Source of the DNA: a virus
Strand: one strand, 5' to 3'
Virus record (IMG/VR): IMGVR_UViG_3300042691_052885
Span: 1-64,000 of that record
Length of the DNA stretch: 64,000 nucleotides
The notes under the pieces are model-generated. The model made no database searches, was not told the origin of the DNA, and worked only from the letters and a program-made list of their open reading frames with translations. The position numbers and the translations under genes are program-made. Of the stretch, positions 10,973 through 59,470 are shown in pieces (position 1 is the stretch's first letter; the number at the start of each line of letters is the position of its first letter).

Positions 10973-10980
10973 AACATTTT

Positions 10981-20621: not shown

Positions 20622-23600
20622 ATGGCTAAAATCACTCTCGACCTGAATAAATTTAAGGCATCTGGTGTATACACCATCGAATTTGATGCCTCCGAGAGAA
20701 TCGTTGTAACTACCCAAACTATTCGTTTGGTGGTTGGTTTCTCACGCATAGGTCCTATTAACGCACCGGTATTTTTAAGAGACATAAATACCAGTCGCAG
20801 AATTTTTGGAGAAATTGACACCTTCCTTGAGAAGCGTGGATCTTTCTTCCATCGTGCACTTGAGACATGTTTGTCTGTTGGGCCGGTATTTGCACTGAAC
20901 CTAATGCCTCTTAAGAGTAAACCAATTAATGAAGGCGGCGATGCAACAAACTATCGTAGTTTTGCATTGGCGGCTGATGAGGAAAACGGTCCTGTAACCC
21001 GCGCATTAGTAACATCATTCTATAACCAAGAGCGTTTTTGGTTTCCAGATGCTGAGTATGTAATTGCAACACAGGATGCAAAGCCTGTTAACCGTGATTA
21101 TCTAATGACAGTGGTAAACCTTTCACAAGCTCCGTTGTCCGTACTTGTTAGAAAATCTACAAATGCACGTCAATATGAAATTGCTGCAAAGGATTATTAT
21201 GGTTTAGGTAATGTTCCTGACTTTATGAATGACAACGACTTTTTGTCTGACTTCTTCTTGGATCTTATCATTGTAGAAGGCGATTGGACAAATCTTGCCG
21301 TTCTTTCACAAGATCCTAATTATTCAAAGTATTTTGATACTCGCGGAATTAAGGCTGATCAATTAGATGCTTTCCTTTCTTTGGATAACATTACACTAGT
21401 AGGTGCATTTACTGGAACAATCATTCCTGATTTTGTAGATAACAATGGTTCAAACCAAAACCTTGAAACTATTGTTAATGCTGCTGTTGGATTGACTGGA
21501 ACTTTTATTGCAATCAACAATGCAAAGATTGAAGATTACGCAAATAGCTTACATAAAATTGATACCATTGGTAATACCTTAATCAGTACTACTGATGATA
21601 CAATTGACTTCTTATCTTACAACACCCCAATTAAGAGTATTGTTGAATTTACTGGAGCTGAGGATTTGAATCCTGCTGGTTCTATTGATGTAACAACTTA
21701 TCAAAATCTTGATAATTCTACTTCAAACGCGTTTATTAAGTCATATCCTTTTGGCGGAGCTAGCGGTAAATTTAATAACGTATTGGTGTTGCCAAAGCCT
21801 GAGCCTGGTGATACTACGTTTTTACCAAGCCAGTATCAATATATCTTGGATAATTTAAGTTCAAATTCTTTGATTCTTACTTATGGTGTAGATACATTGC
21901 AAACTGAAAAACCAAGTGACTATGTAAAGGTTGAAAACGTAATTGATACTGGTACCTCTATTGAAATACAGTTAAGTACGCCTCTTCATACCACAACAAA
22001 CTATGAGGACAGCTTTATTTTTACAGGTTCCGCTACCGCGGTTCCTTCTGCTGCTAATCAAATTGCAGTAACTGACTTAACACCAAAAGACGATTCCAAC
22101 GGTGCACCTCACGTTCCGCAACAATACGATATTCTTTTGGTAGAAGCACCGGGTTTCTATAAATACTACGAGGTTCAATCTTATGTTGCAGGATCTAATG
22201 GTGGAACCGTTACTGTTAAGGACGACGTTGCTAATACATTATCTCCACAAGCTCCTTATTATCTTTCAAGGTATGCTGGAAAAGGCTTGAGCATTGATGA
22301 TTACTCATCTTATGTTCAGCCCGCGGACATTAAAGTTACATTGTTTGCTGTTGACTATACAGCTACTGCTGATAATTATGCCGTAACTGGCAATGCAACA
22401 AATATCAATGCAAATAACTCGGTTCCTTCACAGGGATACAACGCGCCTTTTCAATTATCTGACACAAGAATATCTGAAATCTCAATTGCATTTACACCTA
22501 CCGTAACTGTAAACAGTTTTGAAGGTATTGGAAGTCTTCTAAATCCAGGCAGCGTGCCTATTAACCCTGGTACCGGTTGGGACAGTATTGCTGCCACTGC
22601 ATATAACGTTACGCAAGATCTTACTGAATCTGGTCCGTTTTATCTAAAAGAAATTAATACTGCAGCGTTTCCTTCTGCTGGAACAAATTATGTAGTTCTT
22701 GTAGATGCTACAGGTGCTGATGTTGATTGGGGCGCAGCATCTTGGGCTTCTGGAGATACTATTAAGATTACAATGACTCAGTCCGGTGTTTCATTTACTG
22801 GAATACTTGACGTTGGATTAATTAGCATTGAAGGCGTTGACATCAATAAGCTTCAATATATTGAGTCTTATTCCAATTCAAAAATCACAAAGTCTGCAAA
22901 TACAGGTTTGCTTGTTAATGAGGATAGCGTTAAATACTACTCTGGAAATTCTACTTACAATTACTTGGGTATTATTAAGAACTGGAGTAAGTCTGCAACA
23001 ACTGGAGAAAAATACATTTATTCTCAAGTTGCTTATGGTATAAAAGGTACAAAGGTTGTTCAGTACACTGATACTACTTTGTCAACCCGTGCTAACTTAA
23101 CCTATGCAGAATTGAATAATACTTATGAAGATTCAATTGTATACGCCGATGGATCTGGAACAACAAATGACTTGGCAGTTTATTCTTCTGTTGCAAAAAA
23201 TATCAGTTCTAATGTAGAAATAATTGGAACTCTTTATGGCGGCGGAAAGAAATTCCAAGTAAGCAATGCAAATTCTTTGAATTTGAATGTAGGTGATTTG
23301 ATTGTGGATAGCAGCGTAACTCCTAAACTTACCCGTGTAACTCAAAAGGTAAAGAAAGTGAATCCAGCTACTGGCGCTGTTACATATGAATACACTGTAT
23401 TGGATGTTCCCGCAGTTGATACTGTAACAAACACCATTACTAAGTTTACTCCTATTCAACAATTCTGTGATCGTTTACAATTTAGTTTGTTAAACGGATA
23501 TGTATTGACTGATTATCATTTACCAAACAATACCGATACACAAATTGACAAAATCTATAGTGTAATTGAAAACACCAATATCGGCAAAACACTTGCAAGC

Positions 23601-24545
23601 CGCGATATTATTTCCTTCCGTTACATTATTGATACATTTAATGGCGGTATTGCACCTCAGATGGGTCCAAAATCAATCTTATCAAGATTGGCTAAAAACC
23701 GTCAAAAGTGTATGGCAATCTTGAATGCTCCATCAATTAAACAATTTGTTGAAAGCACAGATCCAAGATTTACTGAATTGCCAGATCCAAATGCTGGAAT
23801 TCCAAAGCCAGTTCTTAATACTGATTATATTGCAACTGGTGGTAATTTGAGTCTTGGTCCAAGCTTCCGTTTTACTCTACCTGATGAAGATAACGGTGCT
23901 AAATTTATTGGTGTATTCTCACCAAACATTATTATCCGTGAAAATAACAAAAATAAGAGCATTCCTCCAGCAGCTGACGTATCAAATAACTTTGTTCGTA
24001 AGTTTATCAATGGTCAACCATATTCAATTGTGGCTGGTCCAAGAAGAGGAGTTATTTCTAATCCAAAATTTGCTGGTTTAGAGTATGAATTCTTATTGCA
24101 AGATCGTGAAAATCTTGAGCCAATCGGTATCAATCCAATTGTTACTGTAAAAGGTATCGGACCAATGATCTTCGCTAACCAAACCGCTTATCAAAAGACA
24201 TTGTCTGCATTTAATAACTTACACGTTAGAGATTTGCTAATCACTATTGAAGAAGCAGTAGAAGATGTACTTGCACAGTATTTGTTTGAGTTCAACGACG
24301 CATCAACTCGTCTTGAAATCCGTACAATTGTTGAGAACTACCTTGACACTGTAAGAAATGCTGGCGGTGTTTATGACTTTGCTGTTATCATGGATGAAAC
24401 TAACAATACTCCTGCAATCATTGACCAAAACTTTGGTATCATTGATATCGGACTTGAGCCAGCAAGAGGATTGCAAAAGTTCATCAACCGTGTAACAATA
24501 TTGAAGACTGGTGCAATCTCTTCAGGTGGATTCAGCGCAGCATAA
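20622..24545 (+). CDS. 18: Tail sheath protein gp18, very large form
   Basis: Contractile sheath subunit. The N-terminal region (RLVVGFSRIGPINAPVFLRD, FGEIDTFLEKRGSFFHRAL) and the C-terminal region (YQKTLSAFNNLHVRDLLITIEEAVEDVL, ENYLDTVRNAGGVYDFAVIMDE, DIGLEPARGLQKFINRVTIL) are clearly gp18. The C-terminal part forms the handshake strands and attachment to the tube. At 1307 aa it is twice T4 gp18 (659 aa). About 600 extra residues, Ser/Thr/Asn-rich and beta-like, fill roughly 330-950. They probably form surface-exposed insertion domains on the outside of the sheath. Third-codon A/T use is high, as expected for a strongly expressed late gene. Confidence 0.93.
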   Translation: MAKITLDLNKFKASGVYTIEFDASERIVVTTQTIRLVVGFSRIGPINAPVFLRDINTSRRIFGEIDTFLEKRGSFFHRALETCLSVGPVFALNLMPLKSKPINEGGDATNYRSFALAADEENGPVTRALVTSFYNQERFWFPDAEYVIATQDAKPVNRDYLMTVVNLSQAPLSVLVRKSTNARQYEIAAKDYYGLGNVPDFMNDNDFLSDFFLDLIIVEGDWTNLAVLSQDPNYSKYFDTRGIKADQLDAFLSLDNITLVGAFTGTIIPDFVDNNGSNQNLETIVNAAVGLTGTFIAINNAKIEDYANSLHKIDTIGNTLISTTDDTIDFLSYNTPIKSIVEFTGAEDLNPAGSIDVTTYQNLDNSTSNAFIKSYPFGGASGKFNNVLVLPKPEPGDTTFLPSQYQYILDNLSSNSLILTYGVDTLQTEKPSDYVKVENVIDTGTSIEIQLSTPLHTTTNYEDSFIFTGSATAVPSAANQIAVTDLTPKDDSNGAPHVPQQYDILLVEAPGFYKYYEVQSYVAGSNGGTVTVKDDVANTLSPQAPYYLSRYAGKGLSIDDYSSYVQPADIKVTLFAVDYTATADNYAVTGNATNINANNSVPSQGYNAPFQLSDTRISEISIAFTPTVTVNSFEGIGSLLNPGSVPINPGTGWDSIAATAYNVTQDLTESGPFYLKEINTAAFPSAGTNYVVLVDATGADVDWGAASWASGDTIKITMTQSGVSFTGILDVGLISIEGVDINKLQYIESYSNSKITKSANTGLLVNEDSVKYYSGNSTYNYLGIIKNWSKSATTGEKYIYSQVAYGIKGTKVVQYTDTTLSTRANLTYAELNNTYEDSIVYADGSGTTNDLAVYSSVAKNISSNVEIIGTLYGGGKKFQVSNANSLNLNVGDLIVDSSVTPKLTRVTQKVKKVNPATGAVTYEYTVLDVPAVDTVTNTITKFTPIQQFCDRLQFSLLNGYVLTDYHLPNNTDTQIDKIYSVIENTNIGKTLASRDIISFRYIIDTFNGGIAPQMGPKSILSRLAKNRQKCMAILNAPSIKQFVESTDPRFTELPDPNAGIPKPVLNTDYIATGGNLSLGPSFRFTLPDEDNGAKFIGVFSPNIIIRENNKNKSIPPAADVSNNFVRKFINGQPYSIVAGPRRGVISNPKFAGLEYEFLLQDRENLEPIGINPIVTVKGIGPMIFANQTAYQKTLSAFNNLHVRDLLITIEEAVEDVLAQYLFEFNDASTRLEIRTIVENYLDTVRNAGGVYDFAVIMDETNNTPAIIDQNFGIIDIGLEPARGLQKFINRVTILKTGAISSGGFSAA

Positions 24546-48648: not shown

Positions 48649-49068
48649 ATGAAAATTAAAGACGGGAATAAAATTCCTGACCTGGTGGTATGGACGGAAG
48701 CTGACGGATTTGACGCCCGCTTAAAAAAGTACCCTACAAATCTAGGTGCGCCGGCTTTCGAGGCTCCTAATATGCAGCTTGCCAAAGCCGGCGCCGCTCA
48801 AAAAATGCTATCGGTATTTGAGCGGGAACGCCTTGAAATTATTGAAAAGATGAAGGACCTTTATGAAGAGTATGAAACTTCAATGATGGTATGGAACTCA
48901 AAAATTTCCTTTGAACCAATTGTTGGCCATACATATCATTTATACGAGTTCTCTTCCGGTAAAACTCTTTCATTGATTTCACCAAGCGAGTGGAAAAAAC
49001 AGGATTGCTATATTGGCAGTTATACATTGACATCCGAAAACAAATGGAAAATTGTTAATAACTTTTAA
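48649..49068 (+). CDS. DUF2452-like protein
   Basis: 139 aa. The pattern PDLVVWTEADGFDARLKKYPTNLGAPAFEAP, a middle helix, and ISFEPIVGHTYHLYEFSSGKTLSLISPSEW near the end resembles DUF2452 proteins of Bacteroidota. This again points to the host group. ATG at 48649. The last residues and the stop are encoded by the GTTAATAAC element of the following promoter module. Confidence 0.7.
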   Translation: MKIKDGNKIPDLVVWTEADGFDARLKKYPTNLGAPAFEAPNMQLAKAGAAQKMLSVFERERLEIIEKMKDLYEEYETSMMVWNSKISFEPIVGHTYHLYEFSSGKTLSLISPSEWKKQDCYIGSYTLTSENKWKIVNNF

Positions 49069-49120
49069 CCCAAACATTTTTTTCTTTGGGTTTTTGGTAT
49101 TATTTTTATCCTATCAAATT
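49054..49120 (+). promoter_or_regulatory. Terminator-promoter module overlapping the gene end
   Basis: GTTAATAACTTT (49054-49065) encodes the C-terminal VNNF of the previous protein; 32 nt with CCCAAA/TTTGGG stem; TATTATTTTTAT (49098-49109); CCTATCAAATT. Confidence 0.78.
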
Positions 49121-49130
49121 TATTAAAAAT

Positions 49131-49493
49131 ATGAACTACACAAATTTTTCTAAATCGCGTAAAAACGCAATTGAGTACATCTGCATTTCTATGAATGTGC
49201 AAGACATCACAACTCCACGCCAGGAAAAAAACGGAACAACCATGTTGTATGATCCAATTTCCGAAGCAAAATACACTTTGCATACAAACGGTTACATTCG
49301 CCGTTACACACAAAAACAATTTTGGCCTTACTCTGGACAATGGGTTGGATATCAATTGAACCGCACTAAAAAAGTTTTTGGCGGAACTGAAAGAATTATG
49401 GCTTCTGCCGATGAGCAGATTGTAATTCTTATCAATGCAATTGTTAACTACCGCACCTCGTATCTTAAATGCTTTAACCATACAAATTACTAA
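49131..49493 (+). CDS. Hypothetical protein, 120 aa
   Basis: Basic, Tyr-rich protein (TLHTNGYIRRYTQKQFWPYSG, then SADEQIVILINAIVNYR). The ATG at 49131 follows the promoter module. No family is recognised. Confidence 0.62.
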   Translation: MNYTNFSKSRKNAIEYICISMNVQDITTPRQEKNGTTMLYDPISEAKYTLHTNGYIRRYTQKQFWPYSGQWVGYQLNRTKKVFGGTERIMASADEQIVILINAIVNYRTSYLKCFNHTNY

Positions 49494-50453: not shown

Positions 50454-51203
50454 ATGCAGCAACTCTACGTTTACATACCTTCATATTTTGGTAGTGGAGA
50501 AAAACGCAAAGAGAGAATACGCATTCATAATCAGCAATTAAATTGGTTATTGCAGTCGCCAAGAGTAAAACACATTTTTGTGTGTTCACAGGATTACCAT
50601 TTTGGCGAAAAGAAAAAGCACGAAAAGATTTCATATATAGATCATCCACAAATTTCCCCTGCCTCTGCTCGAAATGTTTTGCTAGAACATTTTTACCAAT
50701 CGGAAAATCCATTAGCAGTTTTTCTTGACAACGACATTTTTTCCGAGGACTACAGTTTTGATTTCTTTTGCAGATTTGCAGATGCGGTAAAGGAACACAC
50801 GGATTACAATGTACTAATGTTTGCTGGGCAGAAAGAAAGTCCGTCCACAAAAATTGCATGCCGGGTTAGTCCTACCACTTCATTCATTACCCAGTTTTTC
50901 TTTATCACAAAGAACACTGAACAGTATTTTGATGAAGCGCTAAAAGATATGGAGGACTATGAATTCGGTATACGTTTAAGATGCAATGGAGGCCAGTTAT
51001 ACAGCGCAGAGGATCATGGATTTTATCATCACACGTACGAAAACAGCGTAATATACGAATCATGGAGCGAACGCCAAACAAAGTATTCCGGCGTTAGAAA
51101 TGAAATACACGAAAGATACGCAAAAATACTTGGGCTGCCTCTGTATCACTGGTTAGCTTTGCAGGAACACAAAAATATCACAATACAATTGAATAGGCTA
51201 TGA
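50454..51203 (+). CDS. Glycosyltransferase-like protein (GT-A fold)
   Basis: 249 aa. The N-terminus YVYIPSYFGSGEKRKERIRIHNQQL and the block LAVFLDNDIFSEDYSFDFF (about 87-105), with a DxD-type DND, suggest a GT-A nucleotide-sugar transferase. DMEDYEFGIRLRCNGGQLYSAEDHGFYHHT (about 165-195) resembles the acceptor side with an ED and His motif. It lies immediately before the secreted T9SS protein with an ATGA overlap, so it may modify that protein or another surface partner. Confidence 0.6.
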   Translation: MQQLYVYIPSYFGSGEKRKERIRIHNQQLNWLLQSPRVKHIFVCSQDYHFGEKKKHEKISYIDHPQISPASARNVLLEHFYQSENPLAVFLDNDIFSEDYSFDFFCRFADAVKEHTDYNVLMFAGQKESPSTKIACRVSPTTSFITQFFFITKNTEQYFDEALKDMEDYEFGIRLRCNGGQLYSAEDHGFYHHTYENSVIYESWSERQTKYSGVRNEIHERYAKILGLPLYHWLALQEHKNITIQLNRL

Positions 51204-52780
51204 AAAAACTATTACTACTCTTATTGCTAATTCCAACATTGGTTTTTGGCCAATGCGCTGGAAATCAGTCATTCACGCTTAACCCGGCGCCAGTAAACGG
51301 TACATATCAGCCAGGCACCGTAGTAACTATGTGTTATACCATGAATGGCTGGGACACTGGCTTTGGATCTAATTGGATAGAAGGATTCGGTATTACGTTA
51401 GGTCCAGGCTGGGTTTCCTATACTCCGGTATCAGGACCCGATGACTGTGGAGGCGCTGTTGTAGATCAGGGCTGGCTTTGGCTCGAGACCATAACCAATA
51501 ACGCAGGCACACTTACGGTAGGTCCAGGCTATTTTTATGAAGGTCCTACTGGCGTAATTGATGGCAACCCAGGAAATGATTGGGGAGACTTTGGTACCAA
51601 TTGTTTGTGGACTTTTTGCGTTCAATTACAGGTGTCTGACGAATGTGATCCATTATCGCTGTTAATAGAAGTAACGCCATACGCCGATGGCACAATGGGT
51701 AGCTGGGGAAATGAAGCTTGCTTTGATCCACCGTTTCAGGTGTTTGGAGGCACGATAGCCGGCGGTGATGTTAATACGGATCCAATAACTCCGTGCCCAG
51801 ATACGGTTTGCGATTTTACAACATCAGTATACGCTGTAAACAATACGCCAGGATCTATTTATGATTGGCAATTAAGTGGAGGAGGCGCGCTAACAACTGA
51901 TGGAGGACACGATGTTTCGGTATATTGGGGTGACGTTGATGGCGATTATATTTTAAGCGTTCAGGAAACCACTGCCGACGGCTGTGTAGGAGAGATCCAA
52001 ACTTGTAGTGTACACTTGGTTAATCATAATAATTTTGTAACTCTTGGCGTTTCCGAGTACCGTTTATGTCCAGGCGAAATAGTTCCTCTGTTTGCAAGTC
52101 CATCAAACGGAGTATGGACCGGTGAACATGTTGTAGGACCGTTTTTTAATGCCGATGAACCAGGCATATTTTATCCAACTTATCAATTGGATGTGTACGG
52201 TTGCCTATTTACTGGAACCACTACGGTATATGTAAGACCACCCTTTGAAGCGCTCCCAATTACGGCGTCAAGCAATTTTATTGATTTTTGCTATCAACCG
52301 TATCGCCAAATATATGAAGCACCGGATTCTGCGGGTTTTACATATACCTGGTATGTGGATGGAGAAATCTTTAATGGAGTTGGACCAATTATAGAAGTGG
52401 ATTATCCTGACAGCTCAATGAGCCATACTATAGAAGTTTTTGCAACCGATTCAATTGGATGTAAAAGCGAAAAAACTGGAATACTTATAGATACTCAAGC
52501 CTGCTTACGTCTGTATGTTCCTCAATCGTTTACGCCAAACAATGATGGATATAACGATGCTTTTACTGTTGTAGGATCAGCAATATATGAACCAAGACTT
52601 ACAGTGTATAATCGATGGGGAGCGCCTATATTCTTTTCAAATTCTCTAAGACCTGGGTGGAACGGCAATGATGGTAACGGATATTATTGCGAACCTGGAA
52701 TCTACCCCTGGTACTTTTCATACAAAGATGATCGAGGCTTTAACCATTCAACTCAAGGACATGTGGTACTTATTCGATAA
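51200..52780 (+). CDS. Secreted protein with T9SS/gliding-motility C-terminal sorting domain
   Basis: 526 aa. Residues 1-18 are a signal peptide (MKKLLLLLLLIPTLVFG then Q) of Bacteroidota style. Residues 20-190 form a Cys- and Trp-rich beta domain. About 195-435 contain PKD/Ig-like modules (VYAVNNTPGSIYDWQLSGGG; FTYTWYVDGEIFNG). The last 89 residues match the gliding-motility-associated C-terminal domain that directs type B export by the type IX secretion system: VPQSFTPNNDGYNDAFTV, LTVYNRWGAPIFFS, GWNGNDGNGYYCEPGIYPW, and a final strand ending VVLIR. Such cargo is crossed through the outer membrane by host machinery. In a phage genome it could modify the host surface, block adsorption or act in spread. 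Coupled to a glycosyltransferase-like gene. Confidence 0.9.
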   Translation: MKKLLLLLLLIPTLVFGQCAGNQSFTLNPAPVNGTYQPGTVVTMCYTMNGWDTGFGSNWIEGFGITLGPGWVSYTPVSGPDDCGGAVVDQGWLWLETITNNAGTLTVGPGYFYEGPTGVIDGNPGNDWGDFGTNCLWTFCVQLQVSDECDPLSLLIEVTPYADGTMGSWGNEACFDPPFQVFGGTIAGGDVNTDPITPCPDTVCDFTTSVYAVNNTPGSIYDWQLSGGGALTTDGGHDVSVYWGDVDGDYILSVQETTADGCVGEIQTCSVHLVNHNNFVTLGVSEYRLCPGEIVPLFASPSNGVWTGEHVVGPFFNADEPGIFYPTYQLDVYGCLFTGTTTVYVRPPFEALPITASSNFIDFCYQPYRQIYEAPDSAGFTYTWYVDGEIFNGVGPIIEVDYPDSSMSHTIEVFATDSIGCKSEKTGILIDTQACLRLYVPQSFTPNNDGYNDAFTVVGSAIYEPRLTVYNRWGAPIFFSNSLRPGWNGNDGNGYYCEPGIYPWYFSYKDDRGFNHSTQGHVVLIR

Positions 52781-57297: not shown

Positions 57298-59133
57298 ATG
57301 AAAAAATTAGCATTTGTTACCAGATGCGTTCGTCAAAATAATTTAGAAGCAATTGCAAAATCTCTCAAGTCTGCAATTGAAAAAGGCCATGAATGGCATG
57401 TAATTTTTGACTCTTCTGCAATAACACAGATTGAAACTAAATCTATAGAAATACTTCAAAAAGCCAACGCACATTTTTATTTTAGAAGTAGCACCCCGCA
57501 AAATTTTGGGTATGACAACATTAACTATGTTATTTCTGAAAAAATAGAAGGCGATCCATGGTTACATATTATTGATGACGATAATACCTTGCATCCGGAT
57601 CTGGTAAAAGAATTTGAGTCTTTAGAAGAGCTTACACCGTGTATTGTAATTAATCAGTATGTAGGCGGAAAGGACTTTACAAAATTAGAGGTTCGAGAAG
57701 CCAAGCCAGAAAATATGAAATGGCAAGGCGTGGATATTGCCCAGGTGTTAATACAAAAAAGTTTTTTGCTAGAGAAGACAAAGGGCTTTTTAATGGGTTA
57801 TTCTGGAGATGGCTACACAATTGAAAAACTTCATAAAGACTATCCAGAAAGTTTTAGCTACATTGAAAAAATACTCTGCTATTACAATGATTTGGAAAAG
57901 CCATTTGGGTCTGAGCCGCGAATTCTTTATTTAGGTGATCTACCAAATACTGCACAGACCTGCAAATCATCGGCGCCTTTTGAATCTGATAAGCTAAACA
58001 TTTTATACGAGCCTACTGAAGAAAATCTAACAAAAAGAATTAAGGAATTTAATCCCGACGCAATCATAACGCGTTCATCTGATTGGCGCAATTTTTCAAA
58101 GTTAACGCGAATGCCAGAAAACATTCGAAGAAAATGGATGCATTTTCAAAATGATGTTGATGATAATAAGGGGGATAACATTTACAATGTAGCAATGCAT
58201 GCAATGCTGGAACCCGATACAAAACTTGCATCAATATTTACATCGGCGTACAACATTAAGGATAAAATACTTAGAACATACAAATCAATTGCAGCGCAAA
58301 CATACCAAAATTGGGAGTGGGTAATTGTAAACGACTCTACCGATGGCGGTGCAACACAAAAAGTTCTTGACCAATTAAGTGAGCAAGATCCACGAGTTAA
58401 AGTATATGAGTTTCGAAAGAAGTCAGGCGGCGTTGTAGGGGAAGCGAAATATCGAGCAGCTGCTTTATGTAAAGGCGAATACTTAATGGAAATGGATCAT
58501 GACGATGAGCTTACAGAAGATGCGGTTGAGCTAATGGTAAAAGCATTCACGGAATACCCTGATGCCGGATTTGTTTATTCGGATTGTATAGAAAGCGATG
58601 AAAAATTAGCCACCCGCAAATATCCAAAAGGGTTTGCATTTGACTATGGAAATTATTATGAAGATACAATAAGAGGACATAAAGTTTCTGTATGTGCATG
58701 CGTTCCAGTAAACCCAAAAACAATTAGGCATATTGTAGGTGTACCTAATCATTTTAGAGCATGGCGTCGTACACACTATTTTGAAATCCGTGGACATAAC
58801 CGAGGATTGACAATTGCGGATGACTACGAATTGATTGTTAGATCCTTTCTTACAACTCGATTTGTAAGAATTCCAAAATGTTGCTACATACAGTATTACC
58901 ATACCGGTAATACACAAAATGCAAATGGTGGTGCAACTCGAAAAGACATTCAAAGAAGAGTAAAAACTATTGCAAACCATTACAATGAAAGAATTGCAAA
59001 AAGATTTGAAGAGCTTGGAATGGAAGACTGGGCTTACAAAGAAAATCCGCGTAGCCCTCTTAATGTTAAAAGCATTATGGACGCGCCAGACGCGGCATAT
59101 ACATTAGAAATCAAAATAAAGGAAACAATATGA
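57298..59133 (+). CDS. Two-domain glycosyltransferase (GT2 C-terminal domain)
   Basis: 611 aa. The N-terminal 200 form a GT-A-like domain with WLHIIDDDNTLHPDLV (about 82-97). About 205-300 are a linker domain. The C-terminal GT2 domain begins ASIFTSAYNIKDKILRTYKSIAAQTYQNWEWVIVNDSTDGG (about 306-346), has YLMEMDHDDELTEDAV (about 396-411) with the DxD metal site, and RAWRRTHYFEIRGHNRGLTIADDYEL (about 486-511) near the acceptor base. Two sugar-transfer sites in one protein suggest stepwise assembly of a disaccharide. It follows the RmlC-like and oxygenase genes and overlaps the next gene by ATGA. Confidence 0.82.
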   Translation: MKKLAFVTRCVRQNNLEAIAKSLKSAIEKGHEWHVIFDSSAITQIETKSIEILQKANAHFYFRSSTPQNFGYDNINYVISEKIEGDPWLHIIDDDNTLHPDLVKEFESLEELTPCIVINQYVGGKDFTKLEVREAKPENMKWQGVDIAQVLIQKSFLLEKTKGFLMGYSGDGYTIEKLHKDYPESFSYIEKILCYYNDLEKPFGSEPRILYLGDLPNTAQTCKSSAPFESDKLNILYEPTEENLTKRIKEFNPDAIITRSSDWRNFSKLTRMPENIRRKWMHFQNDVDDNKGDNIYNVAMHAMLEPDTKLASIFTSAYNIKDKILRTYKSIAAQTYQNWEWVIVNDSTDGGATQKVLDQLSEQDPRVKVYEFRKKSGGVVGEAKYRAAALCKGEYLMEMDHDDELTEDAVELMVKAFTEYPDAGFVYSDCIESDEKLATRKYPKGFAFDYGNYYEDTIRGHKVSVCACVPVNPKTIRHIVGVPNHFRAWRRTHYFEIRGHNRGLTIADDYELIVRSFLTTRFVRIPKCCYIQYYHTGNTQNANGGATRKDIQRRVKTIANHYNERIAKRFEELGMEDWAYKENPRSPLNVKSIMDAPDAAYTLEIKIKETI

Positions 59134-59459: not shown

Positions 59460-59470
59460 GCGTAAATTTT

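Follow-up and report, generated by a model that had tools for sequence, protein, structure and literature searches.

What use could a tailed phage have for a protein that ends in the sorting domain of a bacterial type IX secretion system (T9SS)? The question is raised by one open reading frame in the 64,000-nucleotide stretch analysed here (the window: positions 1 to 64,000 of IMG/VR virus record IMGVR_UViG_3300042691_052885). Its phage context is certain, as the contig belongs to a T4-like phage with a portal (phrog_213), a terminase (PF03237), a sheath C-terminal domain (PF17482) and a clamp loader. The frame was found just as the first-pass annotation had described it, including a Cys-rich region (17 Cys in the protein), and can be divided as follows.

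51200 to 52780, plus strand: A-B-C fusion protein of 526 aa, predicted T9SS type B cargo
51200 to 51250, plus strand: signal peptide, residues 1-17, with a signal peptidase I cut predicted from sequence before Q18 (Q-rule)
51251 to 51790, plus strand: module A, residues 18-197, a beta-sandwich with a DGNPGNDWGD motif and the best-conserved module
51791 to 52261, plus strand: module B, about residues 198-354, a PKD-like / Ig-like spacer that is its own gene in other phages
52262 to 52510, plus strand: Ig-like part of module C, about residues 355-437; in other phages a separate gene C of ~188 aa
52511 to 52777, plus strand: T9SS type B sorting domain, residues 438-526, over cut-off for PF13585 and TIGR04131

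The sorting domain itself, claimed earlier as an 89-residue C-terminal element, exceeds curated cut-offs in HMM searches, including that with TIGR04131. The last 89 residues match CHU_C PF13585 (E 1.9e-13, 50.8 bits, cut-off 27), residues 440-526 of 526 match TIGR04131 (E 2.9e-10, 40.1 bits, cut-off 35), and both matches extend to the last residue of the protein, which is the only TIGR04131 match in the whole 66,254-base virus record. Sequence marks of the frame are MKKLLLLLLLIPTLVFG directly before the Q near the N terminus, then FTPNNDGYNDAF, YNRWGAPIFF and GWNGNDGNG, and a terminal VVLIR. TIGR04131 also scores above cut-off in 49 of the 50 related viral records, the exception (L062) being a contig that ends inside the second gene. 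At the other end of the protein, the Bacteroidota-style signal peptide proposed at first reading is consistent with the Q-rule, since a Gln directly follows the predicted cut; the same holds in 104 of 105 module A homologues, where the point reads Q-C-x-G and the Q is invariant in the alignment. This is the Bacteroidetes rule for signal peptidase I substrates (PMC5837995), and it has already been seen in other exported proteins of Porphyromonas phages (PMC10367356). The curated models, the Q-rule signal peptide and the recurrence of the sorting domain bear out the suggestion of a phage gene product that would be addressed to the host T9SS, and the sorting domain together with the N-terminal Sec signal peptide supports the assignment of the window protein, on sequence grounds, as a T9SS type B substrate. 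Length counts against export: certain type B C-terminal domains (CTDs) require up to 235 residues for it (PMC12618676), whereas C in the phages has about 188 aa. The proposed PKD-like module stood only in part, as PF19408 scores 22.7 bits in the window protein, below its cut-off of 25, and 35.4 bits, above 25, in the homologous split B of locus L086. SprB repeats (PF13573) gave no match in the window protein; a bacterial relative (L028) has them.

The main point was absent from the first-pass annotation: the window protein reads as a fusion of three subunits, A, B and C, with the internal signal peptides absent, and most related phages encode these subunits separately. The protein was first met as separate genes in L020 and L021. 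Of the 58 non-redundant A modules in all fetched loci, 37 stand alone as genes of ~197 aa and 19 share one chain with the sorting domain. Stand-alone A is followed on its 3' side by B (~187 aa, PKD-like) and then by C (~188 aa, Ig-like plus CHU_C, the latter with 50.8 bits in the split C of L086), an order found in 32 of 32 non-redundant split loci with enough sequence; in the other five of the 37 split loci (L021, L055, L062, L070, L073) the contig edge comes before C could be complete. Each subunit has a signal peptide of its own, while the T9SS domain is on C alone. Most split loci have a 1-nt overlap of B with C, and the gaps between A and B are mostly 2-19 nt. At the A-B junction the window has NTDPITPCPDTVC, where L020 has TSPISHN at the end of one gene, a signal peptide at the start of the next and QFSCPDTVC after it.

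How would the separate chains be held together? Because they form a single chain in the window phage, separate A, B and C very likely assemble into one complex. A C-terminal tail of the form I/V-x-H-N/D is common to 37 of 37 A and 32 of 32 B proteins, modules that are otherwise unlike; of the 3836 ORFs at these loci, 120 have this ending, and those listed that exceed 70 aa are all A or B. The free I-x-H-[N/D] tails are likely the joints of the complex. Structure prediction of the N-terminal domain, suggested in the earlier annotation, gave a confident beta-sandwich for a split A homologue (pLDDT 88.6, pTM 0.85) and no convincing solved relative: the fold search of module A had no PDB match at E <= 0.001 and, among viral predicted proteins, one match (Virus NIOZ-UU157, E 1.1e-9). 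The last ~16 residues of the modelled A are without secondary structure, which would fit a docking tail. We tentatively suggest, at somewhat under even odds, that A and B, themselves devoid of a sorting domain, travel through T9SS in partnership with C, the I-x-H-[N/D] tail serving for docking, and that the window fusion is the covalent version of that piggyback complex.

By portal and terminase, the nearest phages are uncultured huge phages, the Lak phages of Prevotella, Tenacibaculum phages PTm1/PTm5 and Sphingomonas phage PAU, the last being about as close as the phages of Tenacibaculum, Flavobacterium and Prevotella; the terminase is also near that of Flavobacterium phage MaF61. These neighbours make a Bacteroidota host likely, and the Q-rule fits such a host. 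For module A the closest named phage is an uncultured huge phage only, and thus no cultured phage-host pair was found.

What would such a protein do for the phage? We favour, with a probability of about 0.72, a phage-borne counterpart of a Bacteroidota surface protein, namely an adhesin-like complex displayed on the infected cell, with a superinfection block or altered attachment as the likely benefit. Its sequence-supported parts are the Q-rule Sec-type signal peptide, the A head, an Ig/PKD-like stalk made of B and the first part of C, and the C-terminal sorting domain. The protein would be exported by Sec, its sorting domain would then enter the host SprA translocon, and a host shuttle of the PorP/SprF family would pull it out and hold it on the outer membrane, so that the A head would be displayed on the infected cell surface, with the subunits joined in one complex where they are separate. 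The benefit would most plausibly be a superinfection block, by covering or displacing surface adhesins or receptors; altered adhesion or gliding would be our second choice and a shuttle decoy the third.

A related possibility is that the protein aids release or spread, as an adhesin sticking infected cells to neighbours or to particles so that progeny meet new hosts. Its architecture is that of adhesin-type T9SS proteins, with a GhpA-like stalk, and module A heads similar proteins on bacterial chromosomes; we nevertheless consider this explanation rather unlikely. The bacterial relatives also speak to the origin of the module. An IMG/VR scan returned 24 viral loci, most of them full-length relatives with 32-63% identity and few partial or split, and a profile of the N-terminal module confirmed at least 122 viral candidates, of which the best 80 were kept. 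A pattern scan for module A found 2 loci in 84,980 genomes against the 122 viral matches. A profile search found it in 73 of 395 bacterial genomes of one class, and the notion that module A is phage-only was withdrawn. In most examples examined, bacterial A belongs to a large chromosomal protein with the same sorting domain at its end, and is located at the N terminus of that protein or close to it; a PorP/SprF gene adjoins two of the bacterial module A genes examined. As large T9SS type B proteins encoded on Bacteroidota chromosomes can begin with module A, phages appear to have taken it from their hosts. In a tree of A the phage modules cluster almost completely, interrupted by a single bacterial row on a long branch whose placement is unsure; the modules of L022/L024 and of the huge phage LR756502 (L026) are instead grouped with bacterial rows, away from the main phage clade. 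This placement suggests that hosts were the likely source of module A, probably at least three times.

An alternative that we find improbable is a decoy cargo: the protein would occupy the SprA translocon or the SprF shuttles and keep host adhesins (SprB) from the surface, so that gliding would stop and phage adsorption via the gliding machinery would fail. Shuttles are shared among type B CTDs, which can cross-talk (PMC12618676), SprB remains inside cells that lack SprF (PMC12635249), and phage genomes bring no shuttle of their own. No PorP/SprF shuttle gene was found in any of the 50 viral records by a search that, as a positive control, returned 6 and 8 matches in two Bacteroidota genomes, and a phage-encoded SprF partner was accordingly rejected. 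As a rule a type B CTD depends on a cognate shuttle, although orphan substrates exist and can share one (PMC12618676, PMC9143113). Export would therefore depend on a host shuttle and on cross-talk, and the missing adjacent shuttle gene is compatible with type B membership. Among the sampled bacterial CTDs, the one closest to the window CTD has about 42% identity. For a decoy, however, the CTD alone would suffice, yet A is the most constrained module. Summed pairwise dN/dS is 0.20 for A, 0.28 for B, 0.46 for C and 0.47 for the fused genes, and 0.34 and 0.37 for the sorting domain in fused homologues and in C respectively; the pairs are not independent and the values are descriptive. These ratios indicate purifying selection on A, B, C and the fused genes, and the strong constraint on A favours a binding role for it over a pure decoy.

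It is very improbable that the protein is a virion component, an Ig-like decoration or fibre of the particle in which the sorting domain is incidental. The A-B-C genes do lie between tail tube and baseplate hub genes in L086 and L067 and between terminase and portal in L022. Against this, every subunit has its own signal peptide and would thus be removed from the cytoplasm, the site of virion assembly, and the gene position varies: A-B-C follows baseplate-type genes in L020 and adjoins thymidylate synthase in L011, L012 and the window, where the gene is flanked by a nuclease-like gene (49975) and thymidylate synthase (53597), the same neighbours as in the 202-kb viral contig L012. A-B-C behaves as a mobile surface-protein module. 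The homologue at the same position in L012, together with the many viral contigs, ruled out an assembly artefact. Least tenable of all is a functionless passenger, a captured host gene, for although A is of bacterial type and at least two further captures, in L022/L024 and in the huge phage L026, are placed apart from the main phage clade, purifying selection largely refutes it and the three-gene order is strictly conserved across divergent phages. Dozens of related viruses make the protein as three exported pieces, which points to a kept viral tool rather than a stray gene, and a surface-displayed complex remains our preferred reading.

Two elements upstream of the gene call for separate comment.

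49052 to 49149, plus strand: repeated intergenic hairpin/leader cassette, likely start of the transcription unit of the cargo gene; next copy at 59469
50454 to 51203, plus strand: glycosyltransferase-like ORF upstream of the cargo gene, with a 4-nt start-codon overlap (ATGA)

The intergenic cassette, of ~75 nt, occurs in about 11-12 copies, all on the plus strand (window positions 10979, 13841, 33346, 38687, 39731, 42333, 47299, 49052, 59469, 61678, 61957 and 63288). It consists of TTGTTAATAAC, a hairpin such as CCCAAAGA-loop-TCTTTGGG with a T run, and TTATTTTTATCCTATCAAA directly before the start codon; its stems show compensating changes (CCCATAGA/TCTATGGG, CCCAGAGA/TCTCTGGG), and its core motif was observed 11 times against 0.04 expected. 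From its layout it looks like a terminator-plus-promoter unit. One exact form of it was absent from the fetched loci, and a scan for sigma-70 promoters and terminators around the cargo gene showed no excess over shuffles. A match to TTG-N-TANNTTTG at 51130 has counterparts in 3 of 56 upstream regions of homologues against 0.5 expected, which is too weak to claim. The glycosyltransferase-like gene had been described as translationally coupled to the cargo gene; the ATGA overlap is real, the overlap is specific to this phage, and the assignment is weak (23.7 bits against a 370-bit cut-off; PF13632 E 0.03). The ORF has no relatives in the fetched loci, and on that ground its functional coupling to the cargo was ruled out. 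Elsewhere in the window, the product of 57298-59133 has 611 aa, with residues ~303-446 forming a GT2-type glycosyltransferase domain behind a long additional N-terminal region, and 20622-24545 encodes a 1307-aa protein in which only the C-terminal tail-sheath domain (PF17482) is recognizable and which far exceeds the usual sheath length.

Further exported or unusual proteins occur at the related loci. Genes with PKD and Por_Secre_tail domains are inserted between A and B in L063 (6556-7764) and L079 (1868-3088), with PF18962, the type A T9SS signal, at 29.4 and 27.0 bits against 27; with type A tails at or over the cut-off, these phages would carry both cargo classes. A gene in L069 (2063-3307) resembles these inserts in size and place, and L020 (6612-7454) has an Omp28-domain lipoprotein inside the A-B-C operon. 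Several T9SS type B cargos, among them one of 1670 aa with an internal module A, are encoded by the huge phages L026 (LR756502.1 508903-521532; 642 kb) and L027 (LR745206.1 21358-33963; 635 kb). A second type B cargo, of 1040 aa, is present in L104 (9232-12354), and a protein of >1600 aa with B-like repeats lies upstream of A-B-C in L088 (1-4836).

Phage T9SS cargo was predicted before (2019-2020), and it is the tripartite tailed design that appears to be new: the literature searched, which excluded most subscription papers and all preprints, yielded no report of a type B, three-subunit cargo with such C-terminal tails. An isolated prediction, that phages use the host T9SS, thereby becomes a conserved system with clear parts in many phages. 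With it one could ask whether phages use T9SS to reshape the surfaces of Bacteroidota, and whether assembled complexes that include partners with no sorting domain can be exported by T9SS. The C subunit, at about 188 aa, is a small type B cargo of natural origin, suited to studies of shuttle recognition.

The closest known counterparts are the type B T9SS substrates (TIGR04131 / CHU_C), such as SprB of F. johnsoniae and PG1035 of P. gingivalis, with which the protein shares a Sec signal peptide, a repetitive Ig/PKD-like body and a type B domain at the extreme C terminus. Unlike these, it is phage-encoded, is small compared with SprB and has no adjacent PorP/SprF gene, and most related phages use three chains, two of them without a sorting domain. 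The stalk is related, by sequence and fold, to the PKD-like repeats of extracellular GhpA of Aureispira (PDB 9flp and others), which is a bacterial protein of 5898 residues whose sequence match is mainly at profile positions after module A. In crAss-like phages a T9SS sorting domain has been annotated on phage proteins, one of them fused to a BACON domain (PMC6949934); the domain and the phages are different there, and no three-gene design was reported. Phage genes with T9SS sorting domains were also described in Cryophage (Bellas et al. 2020, PMC7468147), for which use of the host system was proposed, with superinfection exclusion among the ideas. That case concerns a single 76-kb phage in which two enzymes and a PA14 protein carry a type A domain, whereas the proteins described here would form a type B adhesin-like complex found across many phages.
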